DNA of 20,957 nucleotides from the IMG/VR virus record IMGVR_UViG_3300028388_002789, positions 1-20,957 of that record; one strand, given 5' to 3'. The notes under the pieces are model-generated. The model was not told the origin of the DNA. It made no database searches and worked only from the letters and a program-made list of their open reading frames with translations. The stretch is from a virus. The position numbers were made by a program, and so were the translations under genes. Every line of letters starts with the position of its first letter. The first letter of the stretch is position 1. Of this stretch, positions 1,467 to 7,896 are shown in pieces.

Positions 1467-1802
1467 ATGAAAGATCACACTAAGAAATTCGATGCAGACA
1501 TCAAAGGGCTGGTGAATAAGGAGCGGCAAGAGGCCTATGGCCACCCTCTTTATCACTTCCAGCGCACGGCGGCCATGAAGGCTCAGCTTAGTACTTGCCG
1601 TGATCCCGAACTTAGGCACGCCCTCGAAATGATCGCGGACAAAATGGCCAGGCTATGTGAAACGCCTACACATTATGACAGCTGGCTCGACATCGCGGGC
1701 TACGCCCGGACTGCAATGATGGTCATGGATGAGCGGGAGTTAAATCTAGAAATAAAAAATACTTCTAGCGTAAGCGTGCCTGCAGGAGACCTTACACTAT
1801 GA
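1467..1802 (+). CDS. DUF6378 domain phage protein
   Basis: This 111-residue, mostly helical protein carries the pattern I recognise as the DUF6378 family, common in phages of Proteobacteria: ERQEAYGHPLYHF near residue 20, then a helix AMKAQL, then MIADKMARLC and a C-terminal THYDSWLDIAGYA signature. The Y-G/F pattern plus the D-(S/C)-x-x-D-I-A-G-Y end resembles small all-alpha nucleotide-pyrophosphatase-like folds, but I do not see the full EExxE metal site of MazG, so no enzymatic role is claimed. The stop overlaps the next start as ATGA (1799-1802), implying coupling to the methyltransferase gene. An upstream ATG at 1410 would add 19 residues but lacks an SD. Confidence 0.7.
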   Translation: MKDHTKKFDADIKGLVNKERQEAYGHPLYHFQRTAAMKAQLSTCRDPELRHALEMIADKMARLCETPTHYDSWLDIAGYARTAMMVMDERELNLEIKNTSSVSVPAGDLTL

Positions 1803-3100
1803 CCACCGGAAATTTTGCAGTTATCCCTATCGACTCAATCTGGGTAGATCGTGAAAATCGTCAACGCAAAGAACTCGAAGGCATTGAGGAACTGGCCGAG
1901 AGTATCCGAGAACGCGGTCTTATCAATCCTGTGACCATTACTAAAGACTTGCAACTTATTGCGGGCGAACGTCGCTACGAGGCTCACAAACTTCTAGGTT
2001 TCGACCAGATCGCAGTCCATTTCACGGACGATCTGACTGAAGAAGAAATGCACCTTATCGAGCTGGAAGAAAACATCAAGCGGCTTGATCTAACTTGGCA
2101 AGACGAAGTGGACGCAGTAGCCCGCTTCCACTCTTTGCGCCAGCAAACAGAAACTGATTGGACACAGGAAAAGACCGCGGAGAACCTTGGCATGAGCCCG
2201 GCCTATGTATCCAAACAACTCCTCGTCAAAAAATACATTGACGAGGGCGTAAAAGACGTGATCGAAGCCCCCAAGTTGACAACTGCTGCTAATTTCGCGT
2301 CCAGGTTGCAAGAGCGCAAAAAGGCGTCAGTCCTTCGTGATCTTCGCCAGCAGAGTCAGTCGTCGTCGAGTGAGTCCCCAAGTATAACTGAGTCTGATCT
2401 TGCGGACATAGCCCCGCCAACTCAATCTCGTTTTGCGGACATCCTGAATGAAAACTTTCAGAAGTGGAGTAAAAATGTTCAAGAGGTTCCATTCAACCTC
2501 ATTCATTGCGATTTTCCCTATGGAGTAAATGCGGGCGATACAAAAGGGCAGTCCGGGGCAAAAGGTTATGGAGGCTACGAGGACAAGCCGGAAATCTATT
2601 TCGATCTCATCAATACTCTTAATAAAAATCTGGACAACTTTGTATCTCCCTCAGCGCACATGATTTTTTGGTTCAGTATGGATTTTTATACAGACACAGT
2701 TCAACTTCTTACCGACGGAGGCTGGTATGTAAATAAGTTTCCACTTATCTGGCATAAGACTGATAACACGGGCATCCTACCGGACAAGAGTCGCGGGCCA
2801 CGGCGTATCTACGAAACGGCCCTTCTATGCACTAGGGGTGATCGCAAGATCGTTAAGGCCAGAGGCAATTGCGTTGGCTCCGTGGTCACAAAAAAGTATC
2901 ACATGAGTGAAAAATCGACTACGATGCTTGAGCATTTTCTATCCATGCTCGTAGACGAAACGACTACATTCCTTGACCCAACCTGCGGCTCTGGCAATGC
3001 CGTAAAGGTGGCCGAAAGTCTGGGGGCCGATTGGGCACTAGGTCTAGAAATCAATCCTGAATACGTAACACTCGCCCGCGAAAACCTGGAGCTTGACTAA
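1799..3100 (+). CDS. ParB-N domain fused to a beta-class DNA methyltransferase
   Basis: This 433-residue protein has three parts. Residues 5-95 are a ParB/Srx-like domain (LINPVTI, then LIAGERRYEAHKLLG at 53-67). Residues 117-150 look like a KorB/ParB helix-turn-helix (TQEKTAENLGMSPAYVSKQL). After a Ser-rich linker (183-200), residues 220-433 form an SAM-dependent amino-methyltransferase with catalytic motif IV (HCDFPYG, 236-242) before the SAM-binding motif I (FLDPTCGSGN, 391-400) and LGLEINPEY (414-422). The IV-then-I order is the beta class (N6-adenine or N4-cytosine). Motif IV reads DFPY rather than DPPY. No restriction endonuclease partner is nearby, so it is probably a solitary methylase for self-protection or regulation, with target choice possibly helped by the ParB/HTH part. 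It starts in ATGA overlap with the previous gene. Confidence 0.88.
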   Translation: MTTGNFAVIPIDSIWVDRENRQRKELEGIEELAESIRERGLINPVTITKDLQLIAGERRYEAHKLLGFDQIAVHFTDDLTEEEMHLIELEENIKRLDLTWQDEVDAVARFHSLRQQTETDWTQEKTAENLGMSPAYVSKQLLVKKYIDEGVKDVIEAPKLTTAANFASRLQERKKASVLRDLRQQSQSSSSESPSITESDLADIAPPTQSRFADILNENFQKWSKNVQEVPFNLIHCDFPYGVNAGDTKGQSGAKGYGGYEDKPEIYFDLINTLNKNLDNFVSPSAHMIFWFSMDFYTDTVQLLTDGGWYVNKFPLIWHKTDNTGILPDKSRGPRRIYETALLCTRGDRKIVKARGNCVGSVVTKKYHMSEKSTTMLEHFLSMLVDETTTFLDPTCGSGNAVKVAESLGADWALGLEINPEYVTLARENLELD

Positions 3101-3393: not shown

Positions 3394-3609
3394 ATGAACA
3401 AAACAGAATGGTTTTGCTACGAGCGGCATTTCAATGGCCGGGCAGTGCCAGTTAAATACACGAAAAGGCCAGAGCCAAAACACGCTGAAGGTGCTGATCG
3501 TAGAATAATCGAAGGCAGTTTGATGGAAATTCCAGTCGGCCTATCCTTAGATGAAGCCGAGAAATATTTCCTACTTAAGAAAGGGGGCCGTTTTGAGTAC
3601 CGCGCATAA
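3394..3609 (+). CDS. Small hypothetical protein, first gene after the promoter
   Basis: This 71-residue basic protein (MNKTEWFCYERHF ... GGRFEYRA) belongs to no family I recognise. The ATG follows GGGAGG (3383-3388) by five bases, and the gene is the first one downstream of the near-consensus promoter, so it should be well expressed. It has no membrane segment; the N-terminal half is rich in Arg, Lys and aromatic residues, with a short predicted helix (SLDEAEKYFLLKK) near the end. Its last 17 bases overlap the UDG-exonuclease gene, whose SD lies inside this coding sequence, so the two are probably translationally coupled. Confidence 0.6.
   Translation: MNKTEWFCYERHFNGRAVPVKYTKRPEPKHAEGADRRIIEGSLMEIPVGLSLDEAEKYFLLKKGGRFEYRA
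3582..3587 (+). promoter_or_regulatory. Ribosome binding site selecting a TTG start
   Basis: AGGGGG lies five bases before TTG at 3593. The only upstream in-frame ATG (3551) has no SD, sits right after an in-frame TAG, and would add 14 residues that precede the first conserved strand of the glycosylase. A later ATG at 3617 lacks an SD and would start inside that strand. Confidence 0.6.
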
Positions 3610-4627
3610 ACCCGTCATGATCGTAGGTGAGGCTTGGGGTGAGCAAGAAGAGCGAGAAGGAAAACCTTTTTGCGGCCCGGCGGGCTCTGTACTCCGCGGT
3701 ATTCTGCGTCAGACCGGCGTGGACATCAATGAATGTTATCTAACTAACGTCTTTAATTTTCGCCCGCCGGGTAACAAAATCGAGGCTCTGTGCGGTTCAA
3801 AATCTGAAGGCGTAGCTAACTACCGCCCGCTTAAGCCGGGCAAATATATCCTCGCAAAATACCAGCCAGAACTTGATCGTCTTCAAGAAGAGATTATGCG
3901 GGTTCGTCCAAACATTATAGTCGCAACGGGCAATGTGTCCTTGTGGGCTCTGTGCAAGAAGTCTGGCATTAAAAAATATCGCGGAGCTCCAATGCTAACA
4001 CATCCAGACATTTGCGGCGGCAAATTCAAAGTCATTCCGACATGGCATCCTGCGGCCATCTTGCGTCAATGGGAACTGCGTGTCGTATCCGTGGCCGACT
4101 TTTCTAAGGTCCGCCGTGAGTCCGAATTTCCTGAACTTCATCGCCCGTCACACTTGATCTACATGGAGCCCTCACTCGAGGACATCGAGGCTTTCTATCA
4201 TCAGTACTTGAAAAACCAGCCCTTCATATCGGCGGACATCGAGACAAAAGAACGCACGATTACTGAAATAGGTTTTGCTACCGCCGATGGAGCCCGCTGC
4301 ATAGTCATTCCGTTCTGGAGCCGTAAAGCCGTTGATGGAAATTATTGGCCTACGCTTGGGCAAGAGCGGGCAGCCTGGGATTGGGTTCGCCATATTTGCA
4401 CTAATCACGCACTTGTCGGACAAAACTTTTCCTACGATATTCAATATTTGTGGCGGACTGTAGGAATTCCTTGCCCAAAATTCGTGGGCGATACTATGGT
4501 CATGCACCATTCTATGCAGCCCGAATTAGAAAAATCCCTAGGTTTCTTGGGCTCCATCTATACCAACGAACCGTCATGGAAATTTATGCGAACTGACCAC
4601 TCAACACTCAAACAGGGAGACGATTGA
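3593..4627 (+). CDS. Uracil-DNA glycosylase-like domain fused to the N-terminal part of a PolA-type 3'-5' exonuclease
   Basis: The protein has 344 residues from the preferred TTG start (358 from ATG 3551). Residues 7-185 are a UDG-superfamily domain like families 4/5: motif A GEAWGEQEE (12-20, with Trp where GEAPG is usual), PFCGPAGSVL, TNVFNFRPPGNK, and motif B PTWHPAAILR (149-158). Residues 195-344 begin a DnaQ/PolA proofreading domain: motif I DIE (D215, E217), motif II NFSYD (278-282), then GDTMVMHHSMQPE (D300 region) and SLGFLGSIYTNEPSWK. The protein stops there, before motif III, which is found at the N-terminus of the polymerase gene 540 bases on. It should remove uracil and, with the polymerase chain, proofread. 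It lacks the N-terminal CxxC iron-sulfur ligands of classical family 4 enzymes. Joined to the next gene by TGATG. Confidence 0.85.
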   Translation: MSTAHKPVMIVGEAWGEQEEREGKPFCGPAGSVLRGILRQTGVDINECYLTNVFNFRPPGNKIEALCGSKSEGVANYRPLKPGKYILAKYQPELDRLQEEIMRVRPNIIVATGNVSLWALCKKSGIKKYRGAPMLTHPDICGGKFKVIPTWHPAAILRQWELRVVSVADFSKVRRESEFPELHRPSHLIYMEPSLEDIEAFYHQYLKNQPFISADIETKERTITEIGFATADGARCIVIPFWSRKAVDGNYWPTLGQERAAWDWVRHICTNHALVGQNFSYDIQYLWRTVGIPCPKFVGDTMVMHHSMQPELEKSLGFLGSIYTNEPSWKFMRTDHSTLKQGDD

Positions 4628-4854
4628 TGTTTCTTCGTGTAGTCCAAATTCACAATCAACACGCTCATGAGATTGAGCTAAATTCTGATCACATAGTCTA
4701 TATGAGAGACTCGCCAAAACCCCTAACCTTTGTCCACATGGTAGACGGTCAGTGGGTAGAAGATACCGGCCCGGCTACCACAGTCTTTCTTAGCAGTGGT
4801 GAAACAATTCACCTCAACGGCACCAAAGAAGAAATCCTGCAGAGGCTTCCATGA
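4627..4854 (+). CDS. Small beta-rich protein, FlbD-like pattern, inside the polymerase gap
   Basis: This is a 75-residue protein starting at ATG 4627, which overlaps the upstream stop (TGATG); AGGGAG lies seven bases upstream. The layout of strand, ELNSDHIVYMRD, strand (TTVFLSSGETIHLNG) and closing helix (TKEEILQRL) resembles the small FlbD family, seen in flagellar operons and sometimes in phages. That similarity is weak and is given as a fold hint, not a function. The gene lies between the exonuclease and polymerase halves of a normally continuous polymerase. Its stop overlaps the next ATG (ATGA, 4851-4854). Role unknown. Confidence 0.6.
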   Translation: MFLRVVQIHNQHAHEIELNSDHIVYMRDSPKPLTFVHMVDGQWVEDTGPATTVFLSSGETIHLNGTKEEILQRLP

Positions 4855-5168
4855 TATATCTTGCATCACCCTATTCTCATCCCGACGCTGTAGTCCGCAA
4901 CTTGCGTTATGAGCGTGTACTCTTCCATTGTGCCGAACAGATGCGAGCGGGCAAAGTCATTTTTTCGCCCATCGTCTACGGCCACCAGTTCGCCCTTCTC
5001 GGCCTAGCGCAGACTGACCATGTTTGGTGGAAAGAGTTTAATGAACGCATGATGGCCGGTTCAGAAGCCCTTCACGTTCTCATGCTTGAGGGCTGGCACG
5101 AGTCAAACGGCGTAAGCCATGAGATCAATTTTGCCCACGAAATCGGCCTTGAGGTAAAATTCGTATGA
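4851..5168 (+). CDS. DUF1937 protein (nucleoside deoxyribosyltransferase-like fold)
   Basis: This 105-residue protein begins MIYLASPYSHPD, the hallmark first strand of DUF1937 and of the wider nucleoside 2-deoxyribosyltransferase-like (Rossmann-type) superfamily. It continues with FSPIVYGHQFA, a middle helix HVWWKEFNERMM, a strand ALHVLMLEGW, and the C-terminal HESNGVSHEINFAHEIGL, where S-x-G-V-x-x-E-I is characteristic; the Glu of HEINFA is the likely active-site acid by analogy. Its substrate is not known; a role in handling nucleosides or modified nucleotides is inferred from the fold and from lying between a UDG-exonuclease and a polymerase. Both ends overlap neighbours by ATGA, so it is embedded in a tightly coupled operon. 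Confidence 0.8.
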   Translation: MIYLASPYSHPDAVVRNLRYERVLFHCAEQMRAGKVIFSPIVYGHQFALLGLAQTDHVWWKEFNERMMAGSEALHVLMLEGWHESNGVSHEINFAHEIGLEVKFV

Positions 5169-6724
5169 AAATCTTTGATACCGCTAATCTAGACGAACGC
5201 CTGATGCGGACCTTATCAGCAGACGAGGCCGCGCACATCTACAACGGGCTCGATTGCTGCGTCACGGCCGAAATCTACAACGAGCTTTCTGAACAAATAA
5301 AAACCGAGCCCGAGAATGTTCAAGAAACCTATAAGGTAGCGATGGCCAAACTTGCTCCCATCCTTGAAATGAGTATGCGGGGCACCCTGATCGACGAGTT
5401 TGCCCGACAAGAAAGTATCCGATCTTTAGAAAAAGACTTGGCCGGGCTAGACTCGAAATTTCAACGGATTATGACTGAGGTATTCGGTAGTCGCCTTAAC
5501 TGGAACTCTCCGAAACAACTTCAAACCCTCTTTTACAATCTCCTCGGCCTCAAGCCCGTCAAGAAACGAAATCAAAACGGCGTTTTTGCCCCGACTACAA
5601 ATCGCGAGGCACTCGAGTTCATGGCCGGGCGTTACCTCTACGCAAAGCCGCTGGCCAACATGATCCTAGCCCTTCGCGACATCAGTAAACAGCTTTCATT
5701 TCTCAAAACCGAGATAGACCCCGATCAGCGTATTCGTACATCCTACAACACTACTGGAACAAATACCGGCCGCCTATCCTCGCGTATGTCTGATTTCGGC
5801 ACAGGTACAAACTTGCAAAACGTAAATCGCAAGCTCCGTTATCCCTTCGTGGCCGATCCAGGCATGTACCTTGTAAACGTAGACCTTGAACAGGCTGATG
5901 GCCGCAACGTGGGCGCAATTTGCCATGACCTTTTTTACGATCGCGGGCCTGAGTTTGCAAGTTCCTATCTTGATGCCTGTGAGTCGGGCGACCTTCACAC
6001 AACTGTTTGCAAGATGACGTGGCCCGAACTTTATTGGCCGGAGGACGAAGATGAATGGAAAAGCTTCTGCGATAGTATTATCGCGCATGGGCAAGACAGT
6101 TACCGTCAACTGGCCAAAAAACTTGGGCACGGCACAAATTATTACGGAACTCCTAGAACAATGGCCAAACACGCCCATGTGCCTACCAAAATCATCGAAG
6201 AATTCCAGCAGCGATACTTCAAACAATTTTCATGTATCCCTGAATGGCACAAAAGTGTCATATCAGACATTAAAAATACAGGCACTATCACAACCCTTTT
6301 CGGGCGCAGACGTATGTTCTTCGGGCGAGGCAATGACGCTTCTACGCACCGAAAGGCTATCGCTTATGCCCCTCAATCTATGACTGGAGAACAGATTGAC
6401 CGCGGGCTACTACAAGTCTGGCGCAAATATCCCCAGGTTCAACTTCTAAACCAAGTTCACGACAGCATCCTATTCCAAATACCGTACAGCGAAGCAAAAG
6501 AACTAATCCCTGCCGTTCTAGAAACAATGAAAGTAACACTTACGCTCAAAGGCGGGCGCAAGTTCACTGTTCCACTTGAGGCCCAAACGGGCTGGAATTG
6601 GAGCAAGGCAACAAAACAAAACCCTTATGGATTGCAGGAATGGACAGGAAAAGAAGAGCGGCCGCGGCCAACACCCAAAAATCGACTGAAGGACTTTTTC
6701 AAGGCTCCCGCCCGGACTTCGTAG
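5165..6724 (+). CDS. Family A DNA polymerase, chain carrying exonuclease motif III plus the polymerase domain
   Basis: This 519-residue replicative polymerase chain starts with a remnant of the proofreading domain, AHIYNGLDCCVTAEIY, which is exonuclease motif III (Y26-x3-D30). The polymerase core follows: MRGTLID (71-77), NWNSPKQLQ (112-120), thumb/palm TGTNTGRLSS (197-206), motif A VNVDLEQADGR (D240), motif B SYRQLAKKLGHGTNYYG (R314, K318, H322, Y326) and motif C NQVHDSILFQ (D433). Compared with E. coli Pol I, motif A has DLEQAD in place of DYSQIE, the F762 position is His, and motif C has HDS rather than HDE; both metal-binding aspartates are kept, so it should be active. The start is an ATGA overlap with the DUF1937 gene. 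The 3' end overlaps the helicase gene. Confidence 0.9.
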   Translation: MKIFDTANLDERLMRTLSADEAAHIYNGLDCCVTAEIYNELSEQIKTEPENVQETYKVAMAKLAPILEMSMRGTLIDEFARQESIRSLEKDLAGLDSKFQRIMTEVFGSRLNWNSPKQLQTLFYNLLGLKPVKKRNQNGVFAPTTNREALEFMAGRYLYAKPLANMILALRDISKQLSFLKTEIDPDQRIRTSYNTTGTNTGRLSSRMSDFGTGTNLQNVNRKLRYPFVADPGMYLVNVDLEQADGRNVGAICHDLFYDRGPEFASSYLDACESGDLHTTVCKMTWPELYWPEDEDEWKSFCDSIIAHGQDSYRQLAKKLGHGTNYYGTPRTMAKHAHVPTKIIEEFQQRYFKQFSCIPEWHKSVISDIKNTGTITTLFGRRRMFFGRGNDASTHRKAIAYAPQSMTGEQIDRGLLQVWRKYPQVQLLNQVHDSILFQIPYSEAKELIPAVLETMKVTLTLKGGRKFTVPLEAQTGWNWSKATKQNPYGLQEWTGKEERPRPTPKNRLKDFFKAPARTS

Positions 6725-7896
6725 AAACCTTTATGGAGTTGACTACGCACCTATCTTCACCGCCCATATTTCGTAAGTGGGCGGCATTATCAGCCATTGC
6801 GGGTGCGCTAGAACGCAAAGTCTGGGTGCGCACAATGGGCTCCAATCTGTATCCGAATATGTATGTAGTATTAGTAGCCCCGCCGGGCGTAGGCAAGACT
6901 GAGGTCACATGGAGAGTTCGATCCCTATTGAAGGATTTAGACACCCATCATGTAGCCAGTTCTTCCGTTACAAAAGCCTCAATGATGGACGAACTGGCCG
7001 AAGCTGTACGTCGTTTTCTTACCGCTGAAGGAGGGGTTCTAAGTTTCAATTCTCTTTCCCTCGTGGTCAACGAACTTGGCGTACTGTTGCCGGGCTACGA
7101 TACAGAGTTTATGAACGCCCTTACCGACCTATGGGACTGCAAGGATTATTCTGAAAAGCGCAGGCACTCACAAAACAAAGAACCGATAGACATCAAGCAC
7201 ACGCAGCTTAATATGCTGGCCGCGTGTACCCCGTCCTACCTGCAAGAAACTTTGCCTACTGGAGCTTGGGATCAAGGCTTTATATCCCGAACCATGCTAA
7301 TTTATTCGGGCGACCGTCAGCTTCGTTCCCTATTCGAGGAGTCACATGTGAATGAGGACATACTTGAACAGTCTAAAGATATGATAACTCACATCGCCGG
7401 GCTATACGGAGAGCTAAAGTTCACGAAAGAATCGGCCGAACTAATCGACCAGTTTCACCTAAGCGGCGGGGAGCCTGCACCGGATCACCCTAAACTCGTT
7501 TCATACAAAATTCGCCGAACAGTCCACTTGTTGAAATTATGCCAGCTATGCTCAATTAGCCGATCGGACGATCTAGTAATTGAGAAGCAAGATTTTCAGC
7601 GGGCGTCCGACTTTCTATTCGAAGCCGAGGCCCACATGCCTGAAATCTTTAAGGCCATGAGTCAGGGTGGTACGGGCAAAGTCATGGAGGAAACATGGCA
7701 TTATGTATTCACCACGTACTCGAAAGAACAAAAGCCGGTCATGGAGCATCGCCTAATTCAATACCTGCAAGAGCGTGTGCCGGTCCATAACATAAAACAG
7801 GTTATTGAAATGATGGAACAGGGCAAGATGATAGAAAAGCGGCTTATGAAAGGAGGCTCGGCGTATGTCCCGAAGGCCCGCCGAGCCCTTCATTAA
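6640..7896 (+). CDS. DUF3987-like phage replicative helicase ATPase
   Basis: This 418-residue protein from ATG 6640 (432 from TTG 6598) resembles the DUF3987 group of phage/plasmid replication ATPases. The N-terminus has the typical FVETFMELTTHL...FRKWAALSAIAGALERKVWV lead-in; Walker A is APPGVGKT (K86, T87 from this start); LSLVVNELGVLLPG is the Walker B-like strand ending Asn-Glu; QGFISRTMLIYSG supplies the Arg-containing sensor strand. The C-terminal 80 residues look like a winged helix (HRLIQYLQERVPVHNIKQVIEMM). It probably unwinds the template for the polymerase encoded just before. The start is uncertain: neither TTG 6598 nor ATG 6640 has a well-spaced SD, and the first ATG after the polymerase stop (6733) would cut the conserved lead-in. 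It overlaps the polymerase gene by about 85 bases. The last + strand gene. Confidence 0.78.
   Translation: MDRKRRAAAANTQKSTEGLFQGSRPDFVETFMELTTHLSSPPIFRKWAALSAIAGALERKVWVRTMGSNLYPNMYVVLVAPPGVGKTEVTWRVRSLLKDLDTHHVASSSVTKASMMDELAEAVRRFLTAEGGVLSFNSLSLVVNELGVLLPGYDTEFMNALTDLWDCKDYSEKRRHSQNKEPIDIKHTQLNMLAACTPSYLQETLPTGAWDQGFISRTMLIYSGDRQLRSLFEESHVNEDILEQSKDMITHIAGLYGELKFTKESAELIDQFHLSGGEPAPDHPKLVSYKIRRTVHLLKLCQLCSISRSDDLVIEKQDFQRASDFLFEAEAHMPEIFKAMSQGGTGKVMEETWHYVFTTYSKEQKPVMEHRLIQYLQERVPVHNIKQVIEMMEQGKMIEKRLMKGGSAYVPKARRALH
7855..7887 (-). terminator. Candidate terminator of the minus-strand lysis/tail transcript
   Basis: GGCTCGGCG (7855-7863) and CGCCGAGCC (7879-7887) form a perfect 9-bp GC-rich stem with a 15-base loop, just beyond the last minus-strand stop (7893). 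On the minus strand it is followed by TCCTTTCA, a weak T-tract; on the plus strand no T-tract follows. It lies inside the 3' coding end of the helicase gene. The weak T-run makes efficiency uncertain. Confidence 0.45.

Follow-up and report, generated by a model that had tools for sequence, protein, structure and literature searches.

In Aeromonas phage Aeh1 the essential nucleotide-metabolism gene nrdA was split by an HNH homing endonuclease through the insertion of mobE, and its chains reassemble a working enzyme (PMC2988022). In the T4-like Aeromonas phages 25 and 44RR the DNA polymerase of gene 43 is made as two chains, gp43A and gp43B, which in the case of phage 25 co-purify and polymerise, and T4 gene 60 is another phage gene split by an HNH/seg element whose chains still assemble (PMC2988022). 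Regarding family A DNA polymerases (PolA), the MEP401-type OM43 phages carry the enzyme in two open reading frames (ORFs) with a small ORF between them (PMC10580990). Here we analysed a viral DNA stretch of 20,957 nucleotides (positions 1 to 20,957 of IMG/VR record IMGVR_UViG_3300028388_002789; hereafter, the window), in which a chain with uracil-DNA glycosylase (UDG)-like and exonuclease domains, named UDG-exo chain in this work, and a family A polymerase chain are encoded by separate genes. We consider it likely that these chains are the two halves of one replicative family A polymerase with a composite proofreading site, whose gene was probably fractured by an HNH endonuclease.

The undivided phage enzymes with UDG, exonuclease and polymerase domains (PHROG_17; among them SPO1 gp31 and those of Microcystis phage Mel-JY34 and Desulfofustis phage LS06-2018-MD01) resemble the pair of the window in domain order, in homology throughout and in catalytic residues, but they are single chains in which exonuclease motifs II and III lie 15–23 residues apart. 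The Klenow fragment of E. coli shares the exonuclease and polymerase fold and the DEDDy residues, although it is also a single chain and has no UDG domain. With respect to the split systems, Aeh1 nrdA encodes a ribonucleotide reductase, whereas in our case what is divided would be the proofreading site of a polymerase, and the split has become fixed in a large and diverse clade. The gp43A/gp43B enzymes differ in belonging to family B, in their cut site and in the presence of a GIY-YIG seg gene or an untranslated spacer. In the MEP401-type phages and in Vibrio phage vB_VspS_VS-ABTNL-3, unlike the window, the cut lies within the polymerase domain, leaving a complete exonuclease domain on a single chain; in the Vibrio phage (L004:4956-8090; L numbers denote the loci compared here) the same gene is split in the palm, with a 184-aa ORF between the parts. 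In the literature searched, mostly without subscription papers, no report of a PolA with a divided proofreading site was found, and the paper describing Caulobacter phage Kuura, considered below, reports a DNA polymerase and does not comment on its split. Split genes with an origin of the kind proposed below are already known, Aeh1 nrdA and T4-like gene 43 being examples.

The two chains of the window

The UDG-exo chain carries exonuclease motifs I and II, and the polymerase chain opens with motif III, followed by the polymerase domain with motif A (D240) and motif C (H432-D433) (Table 1). In the alignment of relatives D240 was invariant and H432 and D433 were at least 90% conserved, in agreement with a family A enzyme. 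An earlier note, made from the sequence of the window alone, had proposed this distribution of the exonuclease motifs, and D215/E217 and D282 were indeed located where it had placed them, with Y26 and D30 in YNGLD; no complete motif III, which would have spoken against the proposal, is present in the UDG-exo chain. The note was inaccurate in placing the start of the polymerase some 15 residues before YNGLD, since the distance is 25 residues. In addition, a single profile, phrog_17 (DNA polymerase), covers both chains, with positions 476–788 matching the first and positions 807–1235 the second.

Table 1. Predicted features of the two-chain polymerase locus, in window coordinates.
Feature	Position	Strand	Description
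UDG and 3'-5' exonuclease chain	3593..4627	+	344 aa, TTG start; Pfam UDG 3e-20; PHROG_17 DNA polymerase
Exonuclease motif I, D-I-E (D215, E217; TTG numbering; DIET)	4235..4243	+	Aligned with Klenow DTE
Exonuclease motif II, N-F-S-Y-D (D282; QNFSYD)	4424..4438	+	Aligned with Klenow QNLKYD
Small ORF between the chains, ~75 aa	4627..4854	+	Only a sub-threshold FlbD match (Pfam)
DUF1937/DUF4406 protein (nucleoside 2-deoxyribosyltransferase-like) between the chains	4851..5168	+	Pfam DUF1937 1.8e-14; PHROG_355 nucleoside 2-deoxyribosyltransferase
Family A polymerase chain, 519 aa	5165..6724	+	Pfam DNA_pol_A (PF00476) 4.2e-41; PDB Klenow match 2e-24, Taq too
Exonuclease motif III, Y-N-G-L-D (Y26-x3-D30), on the polymerase chain	5240..5254	+	Aligned with Klenow YAAED

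The gap between the chains has 537 bp and contains two ORFs. Each gene begins within the stop codon region of the previous one, with TGATG at the end of the UDG-exo gene and ATGA at both ends of the DUF1937 gene, an arrangement of 3593-6724 that appears as in a translationally coupled operon. The UDG-exo chain ends in SWK-FMRTDHSTLKQGDD followed by the stop codon, so that its tail after SWK has 14 residues. Upstream of the TTG start at 3593, where AAAGGGGG is found, there is an alternative in-frame ATG at 3551.

Distribution and conservation of the split

Relatives were gathered by scans of IMG/VR, which gave a total of at least 236 loci, and rows at least 95% alike were then removed, leaving at least 92 split and at least 82 fused loci; the search for fused homologs suggested in the earlier note was thus productive. 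The real number of relatives is higher, because only 80 of the at least 546 confirmed in a scan with the polymerase-chain alignment were fetched. One of the split loci belongs to Caulobacter phage Kuura (L001), a cultured phage with a complete genome of 43.8 kb, which has the same cut and 36–39% identity to the window chains, and whose gap is occupied by two small genes without Pfam matches. Across the split loci the gap length ranged from -55 to 1924 bp. The gap usually holds a nucleoside 2-deoxyribosyltransferase (NDT)-like gene, the commonest ORFs being those of DUF7768 (39/140) and DUF1937 (35/140), both NDT-like.

D215, E217, D282, Y26 and D30 were invariant in every row covering them, both in split (91–92 rows) and in fused genes, and the first three also in a 25-row alignment of the UDG-exo chain. 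All the motifs that define the DEDDy exonucleases (D-x-E, N-x3-D and Y-x3-D) are present and invariant, the third one on the other chain. Of the first 70 positions of the polymerase chain, only Y26 and D30 show no variation at all within the split clade, with T6 reaching 95% conservation, and lysine K340 of the exonuclease tail is nearly invariant. The ratio of nonsynonymous to synonymous substitution rates (dN/dS), calculated by the Nei-Gojobori method for pairs with unsaturated dS, was ~0.02–0.18 in both chains, which are under purifying selection. The mirror-tree correlation of the two chains was high (r 0.83, with 0/2000 permutations as high), and it shows only a shared history, not contact.

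In 19 genome-sized records of the split clade (40–62 kb), DNA_pol_A was found once per record, in some of them as two matches within one ORF, and neither DNA_pol_B (PF00136) nor DNA_pol3_alpha (PF07733) was found in these records. Because the split recurs, the catalytic residues are invariant, dN/dS is low and this is the sole recognised polymerase in the 19 records, the two chains very probably make the replicative polymerase of the phage. The arrangement would represent a natural, evolutionarily stable polymerase with a proofreading site made from two polypeptides in a large phage group, in which it is apparently the sole polymerase. It may also offer ready-made split polymerases for testing how far proofreading depends on domain coupling.

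A side observation concerns L069:246-4537, in which the two chains lie on opposite strands, the exonuclease chain on the minus strand with an HNH-type gene after it and the polymerase chain on the plus strand; this layout is either a real rearrangement or a contig chimera.

Predicted assembly of the proofreading site

A profile that combined the chain pairs with the fused genes matched the Klenow fragment with an E value of 1.7e-49, and it placed D-x-E, Q-N-x2-Y-D and Y-x3-D on Klenow DTE, QNLKYD and YAAED, residues that we take to be D355/E357, D424 and Y497/D501 in the common numbering. As the earlier note had advised, structures were predicted, in this case with AlphaFold (AF2), leaving L069 out of the structure alignment because its exonuclease gene is on the opposite strand. 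In L026 the chains are in one frame, separated by one stop codon and 15 nt. When this locus was read through its stop, the model had a mean predicted local distance difference test score (pLDDT) of 94.1 and a predicted template modelling score (pTM) of 0.91, with disorder confined to the junction, and Foldseek aligned it to Klenow with a template modelling score (TM) of 0.77 over the target. The window chains are also mutually in frame, and for folding the gap was translated as an artificial linker of 182 residues. In the resulting model (pTM 0.81) the linker was disordered (pLDDT mostly <50), both chains had values >90, and TM against Klenow was 0.77, with the alignment running across both chains; matches over the polymerase part alone gave 0.62–0.69. 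Since a disordered linker of 182 residues still gave the Klenow-like arrangement, a short tether is not required for the docking that is predicted.

In our reading the halves would associate non-covalently, bringing together the UDG-like, the DEDDy proofreading and the polymerase domains. The metal site of the exonuclease would be a composite one, to which the UDG-exo chain would contribute D215, E217 and D282, and the polymerase chain Y26 and D30, both on its first long helix. The loop that joins motif II to motif III, where the cut lies, would be at the surface. We infer both the physical assembly of the chains and their exonuclease activity, in line with the preference of the earlier note for a functional two-chain enzyme; the recurrence of the split, the low dN/dS and the invariant catalytic residues speak against decay.

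Origin of the split

We propose that the undivided gene would have been fractured at the motif II-III loop by a freestanding HNH homing endonuclease, and that afterwards each half would have acquired its own start or stop and short tails. The endonuclease would then have disappeared, its place being taken in most cases by an NDT-like gene. As expected for a fractured gene, the two parts are conserved and undivided homologs exist (82 fused against 92 split loci). The distance from the WK after motif II to the tyrosine of motif III, taken from 78 fused genes, was 15–23 residues (median 17). In the split loci the exonuclease tail (median 14, 9–19 aa) and the polymerase head (median 25) add up to ~39 residues.

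In a tree of the exonuclease and polymerase regions (52 rows, LG+C20), the window and 21 other split rows formed one clade with support 100, and the split loci L036, L191 and L209 fell separately within the fused clade. This tree requires no fewer than four transitions between the split and the fused state, all four forced by starred branches. The split is an old, clade-wide arrangement, and other lineages were cut anew at this place. ORFs of HNH type are present in the junction of seven split loci (L016, L017, L028, L068 with two, L073, L094 and L209). That of L209 has 145 aa and overlaps the end of the exonuclease chain, and the nearest kin of this locus, L188 and L204, are undivided. HNH elements also strike the same gene at other places. 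In L194:5001-7941 a UDG-exo-pol gene that is undivided elsewhere has its UDG domain split by a 171-aa HNH endonuclease gene, and in L056:40-2161 and L093:920-2423 the HNH ORF opens with a diverged duplicate of the neighbouring gene's 5' end (the polymerase in L056, the exonuclease in L093), as if homing had duplicated the start of its target. Finally, the junction of L036:3962-5756 is closer to that of L209:4926-7873 than its tree neighbours are, the two having similar exonuclease tails (QWKPDKxxWKxGG) and polymerase heads. Co-conversion of the surroundings of a homing site would produce such a likeness; the sample is small. The gene family allows recent and ancient fractures to be compared, and with them the way in which the insertion of a homing endonuclease becomes a fixed two-subunit enzyme.

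Several observations weigh against the proposed reading. HNH genes were found in the junction of only ~8% of the split loci and none is present in the gap of the window; as they are few and absent there, the fracture mechanism is indirect for the old clade, whose HNH origin we infer. L191 and L036 are single contigs that could carry sequence errors, and the similar junctions of L036 and L209 might reflect one event spread by recombination. Regarding assembly, the models join the chains covalently and their shared alignment contains undivided homologs, and for these reasons the docking is not independent proof.

The likeliest alternative maintains the same two-chain enzyme and attributes the cut to something other than a homing endonuclease, such as the insertion of an NDT-like or other cassette, or small indels that introduced a stop codon and a new start within the loop. 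The gap of the window, free of HNH genes, the predominance of DUF7768 and DUF1937 in gaps, and the junctions of L191 and L036 (-4 and 2 nt, without insert) would fit it. However, the HNH genes at seven junctions, the recent case of L209 in an otherwise undivided lineage and the HNH elements of L194, L056 and L093 favour homing, and we regard a cut of another kind as unlikely, though to be taken seriously.

Alternatives to a two-chain proofreading polymerase

It could also be considered that the chains work separately, one as a UDG/exonuclease repair protein in its own right and the other as a polymerase without exonuclease, a view favoured by the independent ORFs with their own starts and by the opposite strands of L069. 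Nevertheless, Y26 and D30, without known role in polymerisation, are invariant in 92/92 polymerase chains, and the aspartate equivalent to D30 is missing from PolA enzymes with a dead exonuclease, Taq and Bst among them. Together with the Klenow-like docking of the models, this makes separate functions improbable. We give equally little credence to a further possibility, that the split has been put to use and the conserved operon of UDG-exo, NDT-like and polymerase genes yields a detachable proofreading and uracil-sensing subunit. If this were true, the phage could adjust its fidelity or cope with modified nucleotides, and the NDT-like protein might sit at the junction.

Rejoining of the halves into one polypeptide, whether by splicing of an intron, by a split intein or through programmed frameshift or readthrough, had some precedent, as phage polymerase genes often contain group I introns and inteins. 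Introns are present in SPO1 and Bastille, the undivided polymerase of L155:4989-8363 has an intein-like insert in the palm/fingers region, and the chains of L026 share their frame across the stop. But no match to an Rfam intron reached the gathering threshold in 15 loci, the window among them, several loci are too tightly spaced to hold one (gaps of -4 to 15 nt) and differ in frame relation, and the exonuclease tails and polymerase heads are themselves conserved, so rejoining is very improbable. Among its specific forms, a split intein was rejected, the tails (9–19 aa) and heads (~25 aa) being too short and no intein domain being present, and so was a programmed frameshift, since zero-gap loci differ in frame relation. 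The window is a single metagenomic contig, but an assembly error, a frameshift or a dying gene has a negligible probability and is excluded because the gap comprises 537 bp with two ORFs and overlapping codons at its junctions, the split recurs in ~90 contigs and one cultured phage, dN/dS is low and the catalytic residues are invariant in both chains.

The UDG domain and neighbouring genes

The putative UDG domain (PF03167, 3e-20) aligned to the UDG TM0511 with GEAWGE and HPAAIL, which correspond to the GE-x2-G and HP motifs, and it matches family 4 in these fold-level motifs. The iron-sulphur cysteine of family 4 (KCRPP) is replaced by phenylalanine in the window (NFRPPGN) and mostly by leucine in the clade, and the UDG-exo chain starts too late for an N-terminal CxxC; as these parts of the 4Fe-4S site are missing, membership of family 4 is not claimed. 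In the PDB, the solved structure 9qhs_A, a 1142-aa 'putative DNA-directed DNA polymerase I', gave a weak UDG-like match at its N-terminus, and it may be a distant undivided relative.

Upstream of the locus, positions 1799-3100 of the window encode an N4/N6 DNA methyltransferase fused to a ParB-like N-terminal domain, and several relatives likewise have a methylase or ParB-like gene shortly before the polymerase. Directly after the polymerase chain, a DUF3987 primase/helicase-like gene is found at 6733-7896, and likewise in Kuura and in fused relatives.

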